Assembly: GCF_004342445.1 (NCBI RefSeq) | Contig: NZ_SLWW01000014.1 | Span: 1 to 64,000 of the forward strand | DNA length: 64,000 nucleotides | Source of the DNA: Rhodovulum euryhalinum | GTDB taxonomy: Bacteria > Pseudomonadota > Alphaproteobacteria > Rhodobacterales > Rhodobacteraceae | Direction of reading: 5' to 3' | Shown here: one piece after another, positions 19,465 through 21,634 of the stretch | Layout of the letters: the number at the start of each line of letters is the position of its first letter | Numbering within the stretch: the first letter of the stretch is position 1 | Program-made: the position numbers and the translations under genes | Notes under the pieces: generated by a model | What the model was told of the DNA's origin: nothing | The model's database searches: none | The model's input: the letters and a program-made list of their open reading frames with translations, nothing else

Positions 19465-20340
19465 ATGCATGTCGTCACCCTGATCGCCCCTCCGGGCCGG
19501 CTTGCCCCCGCCCTGGTCGAGTCGCTGCGCAACGCCTGGGGGGGCGGCGCGGCGGTGTGGCTTGCCCCCGATCTCGCGGCCGAATTCGCCCTCGACGCGG
19601 TGCCCGCGAATTTCTGGGAGGTCTGGGCAGAACTGCAGACCCTGGGCGTCGATCTTGTGGCCCAGCCCGCCGAGGGACGACGCAAACGCCTGCTGATCGC
19701 CGACATGGATTCCACGATGATCGGCCAGGAATGTATCGACGAACTGGCCGACGAGGCGGGTGTCGGTCCGCGCGTCGCAGAGATCACGGCACGCGCGATG
19801 AATGGCGAGCTCGATTTCGAGGGGGCGCTGCGCGAGCGGGTGGGTCTGCTGGCCGGGCTTGACGCGGGCGTGATCGACCGGGTTCTGGCCGAGCGGATCA
19901 CCTGCACGCCCGGCGGGGCCGAGTTGATCGCCACGATGAAGGCCCATGGCGGCTACTGCGTGCTGGTCTCGGGCGGGTTCACCAGTTTCGCGGCGCGGGT
20001 CGCGGCCGAACTGGGCTTCGACGAGCACCAGGCCAACACGCTGCTGATCGAGGGGGGGCGGCTGACCGGACAGGTGGCCGAGCCGATTCTCGGGCGCGAG
20101 GCCAAGGTCGCGGCGCTGCGTTCGGTCTCGGCCCGGCTGGGGATTTCGACCGGCGCGGTCATGGCCGTCGGCGACGGGGCGAACGATCTGGGCATGCTGG
20201 GGATCGCGGGGGCCGGGGTCGCGCTGCACGCCAAGCCCGCTGTAGCGGCCCAGTGCGATATCCGGATCAACCACGGCGACCTGACGGCGCTGCTGTACAT
20301 TCAGGGCTATGCACGCGCCGACTTTTCCGCCCGAGCCTAG
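19465..20340 (+). CDS. serB: Phosphoserine phosphatase
   Basis: The product is 291 residues. A short N-terminal ACT-like part is followed by the HAD phosphatase domain with the nucleophile motif ADMDSTMIGQE, then VLVSGGFTSFA, and GDGANDLGMLGIAG. It releases serine from phosphoserine. The ATG at 19465 has CGGAG upstream. It is divergent from serC and convergent with arfB; its TAG stop lies on a CTAG that also ends arfB. Confidence 0.94.
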   Translation: MHVVTLIAPPGRLAPALVESLRNAWGGGAAVWLAPDLAAEFALDAVPANFWEVWAELQTLGVDLVAQPAEGRRKRLLIADMDSTMIGQECIDELADEAGVGPRVAEITARAMNGELDFEGALRERVGLLAGLDAGVIDRVLAERITCTPGGAELIATMKAHGGYCVLVSGGFTSFAARVAAELGFDEHQANTLLIEGGRLTGQVAEPILGREAKVAALRSVSARLGISTGAVMAVGDGANDLGMLGIAGAGVALHAKPAVAAQCDIRINHGDLTALLYIQGYARADFSARA

Positions 20341-20759
20341 TCCTCGGGGTCGACCGCGCCGCGCAGCGCCTTGACCGCGCCGCGGGTTTTCTTTGCCGCA
20401 AGGCGCCGTTTCTTCGAACCCAGCGTGGGCCGGGTCGGCAGCCGGCGTTTCGGCTTTTCAAGCGCCTTCCTGACAAGTTCGACCAGCCGCTCGCGGGCGA
20501 TCTCGCGGTTGCGGGCCTGGCTTCGGGTGTCCTCGACCCGGATCAGAACCGCTCCGCCGTCTGTCCAGCGTCGCCCGGCCAACCGTTTCAGCCGCGCCTT
20601 GACCGGATCGGCCAGGTTTGGCGAGCGCTCCGCCTCGAAGCGCAGGTCGACCGCGGTCGAGACCTTGTTGACGTTCTGGCCGCCAGGCCCCGACGACCGG
20701 GAAAACACCTCGGTCAGTTCCCAGTCCTCGATCGTGATCTCGTCGGTGATGCGCAGCAT
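20337..20759 (-). CDS. arfB: Alternative ribosome-rescue factor B (peptidyl-tRNA hydrolase)
   Basis: The product is 140 residues with the GGQ catalytic motif at 26-28 (SRSSGPGGQNVNK) and a basic C-terminal tail (PKRRLPTRPTLGSKKRRLAAKK) that enters the empty mRNA channel of stalled ribosomes. This is ArfB/YaeJ/ICT1. The ATG at 20759 has no recognisable ribosome site, unusual in this window. About 35 bases upstream stands an intrinsic-terminator-like stem, preceded by a micro-ORF with an extreme Shine-Dalgarno match, so the gene may be controlled by that leader. Confidence 0.92.
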   Translation of the reverse strand: MLRITDEITIEDWELTEVFSRSSGPGGQNVNKVSTAVDLRFEAERSPNLADPVKARLKRLAGRRWTDGGAVLIRVEDTRSQARNREIARERLVELVRKALEKPKRRLPTRPTLGSKKRRLAAKKTRGAVKALRGAVDPED

Positions 20760-20794
20760 GGGGCGAGACTGGGCCAGCCTGTCGAAAATGGAAA

Positions 20795-20817
20795 GGGCCG
20801 CCCATTGCAGGCGGCCC
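20795..20817 (-). terminator. Intrinsic terminator or attenuator upstream of arfB
   Basis: GGGCCGCC (20795-20802) pairs with GGCGGCCC (20810-20817) around a seven-base loop. On the minus strand it is followed by TTTCCATTTTC. It sits between the micro-ORF at 20888-20944 and arfB. Confidence 0.7.
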
Positions 20818-20887
20818 CGAGAGCTACGGAGATGGGCCGGTTAGAGCGAAGGGCCCAATCGGGGATGTTCGGCCTTCGGGGCTGCCC

Positions 20888-20944
20888 TCAGGCCACGGCC
20901 CCCCCGACTGTTCCAACACCTGTCTCCACTATCACTCTAGACAC
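20888..20944 (-). CDS. 18-codon micro-ORF with near-complete anti-SD complementarity at its start
   Basis: The reading is MSRVIVETGVGTVGGAVA from GTG 20944 to TGA 20888. Directly upstream and running into the start codon the minus strand carries AGAAAGGAGGTGGTCCAG (20944-20961), which can pair with the whole 3' end of alphaproteobacterial 16S rRNA (CUGGAUCACCUCCUUUCU, from memory) with one G-U pair and no mismatch. The peptide has no family I recognise. It may be a leader peptide or ribosome-binding decoy rather than a functional protein. It precedes structured GC-rich sequence and a terminator, then arfB. Confidence 0.5.
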   Translation of the reverse strand: MSRVIVETGVGTVGGAVA

Positions 20945-21013
20945 TGGACCACCTCCTTTCTGCTGTTGCCGTCAGGGGTAGCGTGCCACAGATTTGGTGT
21001 ATGTCCAGTTAAA

Positions 21014-21634
21014 TTACGCAACCTGTACGGTCATGCGCCGAACAATCAGGCGGAACGGCACCAGCGCGATCAAGGCGAGGGCAAGTTTGACACCCCAGTC
21101 GGCGACCGCGAGCGACAGCCAGAGCGGCGCGGTCGGGCCGAGCCCCAGCAGGGGCAGCGACTCGTTCGCCCACGAGACGTCGTTTCCCGGCTCCAGAAAG
21201 GCCAGCGCGCCCGAGAACGCGATGGTGAAGAAGATCGCGGTATCGACCGTCGAGCCGACCAGCGTCGAGGCGAGCGGCGCGCGCCACCAGCGGCCCTGCC
21301 GCAGCCGGTCGAACACCGCCACGTCCAGAATCTGCGCCGTCAGGAAGGCAAGGCCCGAGCCCATCGCGATTCGCAGCGTGACCAGCGGTCCGAATTCGCC
21401 CTGGATCTGGGTGCCGACGAACGAGCAGATCACCCCGACGACGAAGCCGGCGAAAACCACCCGGCGCGCGGGCCCCGGCCCGTAGACACGGTTCATCACG
21501 TCGGTCACCAGAAAGGCCAGCGGATAGGTGAAGGCGCCCCAGGTCAGCCACTGGCCGAACAGGATCTGCACGAGGACGTTCGAGGCCACGACGATCGCGG
21601 CCATGGCAAGGATGCCGGGAAGAAGACGGATCAT
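21014..21634 (-). CDS. Queuosine precursor transporter (YhhQ/VUT family)
   Basis: The product is 206 residues with about six membrane segments. The motifs VTDVMNRVYGPGPARRVV, RIAMGSGLAFLTAQILDVAVFDRLR and STLVGSTVDTAIFF are those of the vitamin-uptake-like transporter family (YhhQ), which takes up preQ0/preQ1 for queuosine. It stands alone on the minus strand. Confidence 0.88.
   Translation of the reverse strand: MIRLLPGILAMAAIVVASNVLVQILFGQWLTWGAFTYPLAFLVTDVMNRVYGPGPARRVVFAGFVVGVICSFVGTQIQGEFGPLVTLRIAMGSGLAFLTAQILDVAVFDRLRQGRWWRAPLASTLVGSTVDTAIFFTIAFSGALAFLEPGNDVSWANESLPLLGLGPTAPLWLSLAVADWGVKLALALIALVPFRLIVRRMTVQVA

Follow-up and report, generated by a model that had tools for sequence, protein, structure and literature searches.

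CC2171 (RF01867) is said to come from Landt et al. 2008 and is, of the RNAs described so far, the one most like the element presented here. Rfam gives it the type Gene; sRNA. MH_s33 of Mesorhizobium huakuii belongs to RF01867 and is listed in PMC5596092 with a sequenced product of 215 nt. Two earlier Caulobacter ncRNAs are actually translated, according to PMC4117421, and CC2171 may be one of these two. An open reading frame in a CC2171-type RNA, its pairing with 16S rRNA or a fold-back onto its Shine-Dalgarno (SD) sequence was not found described in the accessible parts of the literature. The RF01867 model, with the consensus cAAcaAucGAAAGGAGGUGAUCCAGUGUCUCAU and onward, matches the present locus over its full length and has a helix that runs from the first codons to the region ahead of a terminator-like hairpin; the locus lies below the Rfam cut-off.

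6S RNA imitates the substrate of RNA polymerase and is opened by the polymerase's own reaction. The proposed likeness is that the present RNA, too, would mimic what a central machine works on and be opened when that machine acts. The target of 6S RNA, however, is RNA polymerase, whereas trapping of 30S subunits by the RNA discussed here is only a proposal by analogy.

The trpL / rnTrpL and other leader-peptide attenuators share with the present element a short translated frame and a free small RNA (for rnTrpL, PMC10117765). Unlike them, the element has no antiterminator in the folds computed and no constant downstream gene, and rnTrpL is described in the same text as leaderless, whereas the RNA here has an extreme SD sequence.

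In a Staphylococcus aureus 70S complex the SD duplex is extended toward the start codon by two pairs (PMC13009471). The lengthening of SD pairing toward the start codon is common to both cases, but in S. aureus it amounts to two extra pairs in many mRNAs, and here the pairing can reach 18 bases, mostly with a single such RNA in each genome.

An sRNA of Actinobacteria, Ms_IGR-5 (RF02471), has a consensus that starts with ACACAaGGAAGGAgGugGuCcGag, which largely complements the 3′ end of 16S rRNA. The match is below the cut-off (16.5 bits, E-value = 0.084) and this consensus, unlike the element, has no start codon right after the motif. A search with RF02471 found nothing in the organism's own genome or in 14 controls, and the actinobacterial relative thus stays a lead. 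Judged by its sequence, Ms_IGR-5 is perhaps a second, independent (convergent) RNA of such a kind.

Elements, sets and alignment

The window is the whole stretch of DNA that was analyzed, 64,000 nucleotides from Rhodovulum euryhalinum. The principal features of the locus are as follows.

20337..20759, minus strand: arfB (RF-1 domain, PF00472), downstream neighbor and possible read-through target
20784..20818, minus strand: intrinsic terminator, stem-loop 20818-20794 with 11 pairs (8 G-C) and a U-rich tail
20888..20944, minus strand: micro open reading frame (micro-ORF) VSRVIVETGVGTVGGAVA, GTG at 20944-20942, 18 codons, TGA at 20890-20888
20944..20961, minus strand: extended SD sequence and complement of the 16S 3′ end, AGAAAGGAGGTGGTCCAG, 18/18 pairs, −32.0 kcal/mol
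21014..21634, minus strand: yhhQ-like Vut_1 transporter gene, upstream neighbor

A set of 192 elements underlies most counts. These were found by motif patterns, by the surrounding DNA or by RF01867, and the motif was then required within two substitutions; conservation of the motif in the 192 is thus partly forced, and frame length, terminator and helix are unforced. Loci L001-L006, four rDNA loci and loci without such a motif were left out, as were loci with fewer than 60 nt upstream or 260 nt downstream and four near-duplicates (196 reduced to 192). The term Rhodobacteraceae-type (69 elements, including that of the window) refers to a sequence string near the start and not to taxonomy, so that some members of the family are among the 123 others. 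The 178 elements with a terminator score of 25 or more were grouped into 64 clusters, and relatedness was reduced only in the helix permutation and P1-probability tests, where these clusters were used. Alignment A1 contains 44 of the 49 family elements (L024, L033, L042, L048 and L050 are not included).

A sequence complementary to the 3′ end of 16S rRNA

The 16S partner of the motif is CUGGAUCACCUCCUUUCU, and all 18 bases are paired with a duplex energy of −32.0 kcal/mol. The first-pass annotation, which reported near-complete complementarity to the 16S 3′ end, was right in this and understated the element. The same duplex scoring applied to the upstream regions of the 187 open reading frames of the window gives a median of −7.0 and a best value of −20.3. 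Among the 127,964 18-mers of the window the motif is the strongest 16S-pairing site; the one 18-mer with a better value, −32.2, is this site displaced by a single base. A search of the whole genome (a 44-contig assembly) with up to one mismatch found the motif nowhere else. The organism's own 16S gene was also unmatched in this search, thus rDNA seems to be absent from the assembly.

The segment GAAAGGAGGTG is invariant in 44 aligned relatives, which had themselves been collected by way of this motif or of the DNA around it. In 183 of the 192 elements the start codon is preceded by a purine, which can pair with a 16S U. Twelve extra loci were fetched, 11 of them from genomes that the search with one mismatch or fewer had missed. 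GGAGGTG is kept in 11 of the 12, and the motif was not found in L234, a weak RF01867 match among them. Of these 11, just four have GAAA before GGAGGTG; four have GAAAA, and GTAAA, GCAAA and GAACA occur once each. The GATCC part is altered, with weakened pairing, in three of the 11. This variation in the GAAA and GATCC parts indicates that full 16S complementarity is strong and not absolute.

The micro open reading frame

A GTG at the last G of the motif had been said to open an 18-codon frame, and this is confirmed, with TGA at 20890-20888. The frame has 18 codons in 47 of the 49 family elements and 20 codons in the other two. The first in-frame stop falls at 14-31 codons in 190 of the 192 elements (exactly 18 codons in 98), the two exceptions having 36 and 59 codons. 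Closure at 14-31 codons is seen in 37/192 and 40/192 elements for the other two frames and for 20.5% of 1115 random RTG starts. The start codon is GTG in 127 elements and ATG in 65. Frames of 20-27 codons were present in all 20 of the further class matches listed from a phylum-wide draw, and L236, one of the 12 later fetched loci, has a micro-frame of 12 codons. Comparison of these sequences argues that the start, stop and length of the micro-ORF are under selection.

Terminator and upstream signals

The terminator proposed to lie before arfB is present at 20818-20794, with 11 pairs, eight of them G-C. A terminator score of 25 or more is reached by 178/192 elements versus 24/192 reversed sequences, and a terminator string follows the element in 47 of the 49 family elements. 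The predicted transcript in the window is about 190 nt.

20978..21007, minus strand: promoter-like block TGGACA/TTGACA ... GGCACGCTACC, conserved columns of A1 by column information, putative function

This block is placed between the yhhQ stop codon and the RNA. No match to the sigma-70 consensus was found in the window. None of the 69 Rhodobacteraceae-type elements, the type of the window, has a TATAAT-like hexamer at a distance of 24-28 nt upstream of the motif (30 of these have a scoring hexamer), whereas 37/123 of the others do (55 with a scoring hexamer). Other hexamers cluster 53-59 nt upstream of the motif, in eight elements of the other types and 15 of the Rhodobacteraceae type. This distribution suggests a promoter of the element's own outside the type of the window; within the type a promoter is only inferred.

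An exact copy of the DnaA box (TTATCCACA/TGTGGATAA) is located in the promoter region, 60 nt or less upstream of the motif, in L010, L011, L015, L055 and L102. These are 5/69 Rhodobacteraceae-type elements, versus 0.045 in shuffled sequences, and 0/123 others have it. A link of the element to replication in the Rhodobacteraceae-type lineage is possible.

Predicted folding

The helices that were analyzed in A1 are listed below.

20936..20940, minus strand: P1a 5′ arm CTAGA, codons 2-3, pairs with 20822-20818; 79.5% of cells paired
20818..20822, minus strand: P1a 3′ arm TCTCG, abuts the terminator
20913..20927, minus strand: P1b 5′ arm GGAGACAGGTGTTGG, codons 6-11, pairs with 20840-20828; 83.5-97.7% of cells paired
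20828..20840, minus strand: P1b 3′ arm CCGGCCCATCTCC, includes the anti-SD mimic CATCTCC at 20834-20828
20902..20910, minus strand: P2 5′ arm CAGTCGGGG, within the open reading frame; compensatory changes, 25/44 rows at the best pair
20856..20864, minus strand: P2 3′ arm CCCCGATTG, from the same helix analysis
20878..20887, minus strand: small post-stop hairpin GGGCAGCCCC, two pairs tested, 97.7% paired

P1a has one internal U x C mismatch in most rows. Strings like GAG-CAGC-CTC were seen by eye in members of the Hyphomicrobiales. Taken together, P1, P2 and the post-stop hairpin have 90.5% of cells paired, as against 84.9% in shuffled and 34-55% in slid comparisons, and 68 doubly changed cells versus 18.9 (A1, 44 rows). 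Covariation is clearest in P2. Within the family there is little variation in P1a and P1b, and P1 is supported mainly by a permutation test across the class. Here the first 33 nt of the frame were paired with the 34 nt before the terminator in 64 clusters. The energies of own pairs sum to −1566.6 versus a permuted mean of −1172.6 (sd 28.0), a value reached by 0 of 5000 permutations; 13.9% of single cross-pairs between clusters match the own pair in strength. Thermodynamic prediction gives a mean P1 probability above 0.3 in just 42 of 64 representatives.

The anti-SD mimic CATCTCC can alternatively pair with the SD sequence GGAGGTG. All seven SD pairs with the mimic are possible in 40/44 rows of A1. 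A string of the type C[AG][CT]CTCC is found in 65/69 Rhodobacteraceae-type elements versus 5.6 shuffled and is scarce elsewhere (14/123 other elements, shuffled 5.9). In the minimum free energy (MFE) fold predicted for the window RNA, 20956-20949 and 20828-20835 form 8 pairs (z −2.36). An RNAalifold consensus of A1 pairs the SD sequence with the terminator tail and not with the P1 3′ arm; this fold was set aside, since there is hardly any variation in its SD-terminator pairs.

Distribution and relation to RF01867

The first-pass annotation had made its reading depend on conservation in relatives, and motif, frame and terminator all recur across many genomes. Allowing a single mismatch, 199/295 genomes of the family contain the motif, a tally that includes some rDNA since four of 30 loci among the matches listed were 16S rDNA. 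A DNA search with the region gave matches in 28/61 genomes: the organism's own, 15/15 others of the genus, 10/21 from the rest of the family and 2/24 from other families. A looser pattern is present in 77/100 family genomes versus 18/100 in the reversed control, and by eye the typical continuation of the element was counted in 69 of the 77 matches.

In a phylum-wide draw with one mismatch or fewer, the pattern occurs in 66/111 alphaproteobacterial genomes, mostly as a single copy (hand-counted, 17/23 genomes of the same family and 49/88 of other alphaproteobacterial families). It occurs in 2/238 genomes of other classes, both with a mismatch, which is chance level; the reversed control gives 9/349 genomes, five of these among the 238. 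A pattern scan of genome contigs yielded at least 119 stretches, and the titles of 80 of them name alphaproteobacteria in 76 cases, Proteobacteria only in three and Gemmatimonadota in one. The orders represented in the scan are, by our assignment, Rhodobacterales, Sphingomonadales, Hyphomicrobiales, Caulobacterales, Rhodospirillales and Acetobacterales.

The locus in the Gemmatimonadota-titled MAG (L124:5050-5230) is situated between gcvH and a mechanosensitive-channel gene and resembles the element, with an extended SD sequence, a 21-codon frame, a strong terminator and a possible P1. It may represent transfer, misassignment or convergence. In Inquilinus limosus a Whalefall-1 RNA (RF01762; L165:7753-7804, plus strand) is found about 6 kb from the element.

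The first-pass annotation knew of no named RNA family for the element. A family does exist, RF01867, and what stands of the earlier statement is that the window match is sub-threshold, at 35.4 bits where the gathering score is 75. The alignment covers positions 1-159 of the 159 of the model (E-value = 3.8e-6 for 301 bases, 1.1e-5 genome-wide). The 5′ block of the model, CAACA..GAAAGGAGGUGRUCCAGUGUCU, is present in the window alignment. The helix by which the model joins the first codons to the region before the terminator is skipped there; the permutation test and A1 support a helix of different sequence at this position. The 3′ hairpin of the model is laid from the post-stop CCCCGAA to the 5′ strand of the terminator, not on the terminator of the window. 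In the class, 61/289 genomes have a match at an E-value of 0.001 or less and nine are above the cut-off; among loci from other clades just 2 of 18 reach the Rfam cut-off. RF01867 is the known part of a wider alphaproteobacterial sRNA family.

A proposed ribosome-gated switch

The element of the window looks like a stand-alone small RNA gene and not merely a leader of arfB. That it might be a separate small RNA had been offered as one of two possibilities, and it is well supported by the element's own terminator, its persistence beside unrelated genes and, outside the type of the window, the TATAAT-like hexamer in 37/123 elements. From the sequence comparisons we give an about even chance to the explanation that the element is an RNA switch gated by ribosomes, with selection acting on its being translated and not on the peptide.

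The RNA would alternate between two states. When free, it would fold back, its 3′ arm masking the first codons (in the Rhodobacteraceae type, the SD sequence as well). A 30S subunit would enter at the 5′ end of the motif, pair through the 16S tail and displace the 3′ arm. The length of the 16S complement is proposed to exist because the 30S subunit must outcompete the fold-back arm. Translation of the short frame would then hold the 5′ arm open, and the RNA would close again after termination. The state of the RNA, its stability or the exposure of its 3′ arm would in this way track ribosome availability, with the peptide as a by-product. The suggestion of the first-pass annotation that the element could report ribosome supply would suit such an anatomy, where strong pairing to 16S competes with pairing inside the RNA. 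The two-pair extension in S. aureus indicates that an SD extension near the start codon is physically possible on the ribosome. In the Rhodobacteraceae, read-through of the terminator could additionally feed arfB.

Gene neighborhood and control of arfB

A second explanation is that the element is an arfB leader in which the behavior of the ribosome on the micro-ORF leads either to termination or to read-through, and disturbed translation would raise the level of the rescue factor. An upstream open reading frame and a terminator do stand before arfB. The gene lies downstream on the same strand in 53/64 Rhodobacteraceae-type loci with enough sequence, and its start is less than 100 nt from the terminator in 45 of 55 measured loci of this type, which leaves little room for a separate promoter. 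The arfB start had been described as lacking a ribosome site: a GGAGG-like core is indeed missing upstream of it, but the 20 bases before it have a duplex energy of −9.3, no weaker than the median of the window (−7.0).

Against this explanation, arfB is missing at 11/64 Rhodobacteraceae-type loci, so the linkage is not constant. At the loci scanned outside the Rhodobacterales the neighbors are unrelated and include RNB-domain (RNase R-like), bicarbonate-transporter and aminotransferase genes; in L152, of the Hyphomonadaceae, an arfB-like gene is upstream on the opposite strand. No common theme was found among 30 neighbors (Pfam, E-value of 1e-6 or less), nine of which had no family. An antiterminator was not seen in the RNAalifold consensus, the A1 helices or the MFE fold of the window, and the stop codon of the micro-ORF is about 70 nt upstream of the terminator stem. 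An exclusive arfB leader was rejected as the general role of the element because of the unrelated neighbors elsewhere and the 11/64 loci without arfB. Of the attenuator reading in the first-pass annotation there is left a possible control of arfB by read-through in the Rhodobacterales (53/64 linked), and as an account of the element we consider the leader unlikely.

A class-wide gene neighborhood was also sought by an all-against-all comparison of flanking open reading frames, many of them shadow ORFs, and rejected, the clusters being mostly of a single order. One cluster joins Hyphomicrobiales and Roseococcus-type loci.

Several observations on genes near elements are recorded here. The element of Bosea psychrotolerans has an RNase R-like gene with RNB, CSD2 and S1 domains downstream of it, both on one strand (L118:4162-6477, plus strand). 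Fragments like the C-terminus of ArfB are repeated downstream of arfB in L059 (519-806). The window itself has a serC leader (RF00517, 19183-19234, minus strand; 72.8 bits, above cut-off) before a serC-like gene, which adjoins serA-like and SerB-like HAD genes; the names serA and serC are our assignments from the sequences.

Other explanations

An extension of the ribosome-gated switch by analogy with 6S RNA is unlikely. The RNA, mostly a single one in each alphaproteobacterial genome that has it, would be the translational counterpart of 6S RNA: it would mimic a perfect ribosome-binding site, trap free 30S subunits on the whole 16S tail and be freed from them only once complete initiation can occur, with a throw-away peptide. 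The arm, which in the Rhodobacteraceae type is an anti-SD copy, would set the threshold. Where non-SD mRNAs are abundant in a lineage, such an RNA could shift the balance between SD-led and other mRNAs, and in the Rhodobacterales it could signal to arfB.

The locus could also be a plain small-protein gene, with the micro-peptide as product and the RNA structure tuning its output. The strong SD sequence and a start and stop kept in 190/192 elements are what such a gene would have, and the N-terminal half of the family peptide is recognizable as VSRVxLExGVGTV. In the Rhodobacteraceae type the synonymous share of single-base codon differences is 0.417 in frame versus 0.27 and 0.24 in the other frames, an excess that makes peptide selection there possible, if doubtful. 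However, an excess of variability at codon position 3 was found in none of six groups tested, and the codon-position entropies are 0.90, 0.95 and 0.94 in 74 distinct Rhodobacteraceae-type open reading frames. In four of the five other groups in-frame codon differences are less often synonymous than in both other frames. Across orders the peptides have little in common beyond (M/V)S, and the conserved codons of the micro-ORF fall within the P1 and P2 arms. Outside the Rhodobacteraceae type no selection on the peptide is seen. The sequence data thus disfavor the peptide as the conserved product, and a small-protein gene is improbable.

We regard as equally improbable a regulatory sRNA that pairs with mRNAs through its G-rich 5′ segment or its exposed 3′ arm and is bound by ribosomes incidentally. 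The element is an intergenic RNA that ends with a terminator, its SD and start regions are partly unpaired in predicted folds and CC2171 is classed as an sRNA by Rfam. On the other hand, the complement fits the 16S tail specifically, as far as the last base ahead of the start codon, and closure of the frame is conserved; a pairing sRNA needs neither a closed frame nor a 16S match.

Chance or a 16S rDNA fragment or echo on the other strand has a negligible probability: the motif differs at one base only from the reverse complement of the 16S 3′ end, and 4/30 loci among the matches listed were rDNA, but the likeness ends at CCAG (rDNA continues with CCGC, the element with TGTCT) and the element has its own conserved frame, helix and terminator.

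Significance

CC2171 was already known as a little-studied Caulobacter RNA. To this the sequence comparisons add its presence in many alphaproteobacteria, the potential for pairing with 16S rRNA, the closed micro-ORF and a predicted fold-back. The frame seems to be kept for being translated and not for its peptide, and this matters to the annotation of small proteins. If the ribosome-gated switch is true, the unexplained Rfam family CC2171 becomes a testable system. Much of a class, with the Rhodobacterales, Caulobacterales, rhizobia and sphingomonads among the lineages concerned, would then carry a dedicated RNA that tracks ribosome availability, a form of global control over translation that would be new.
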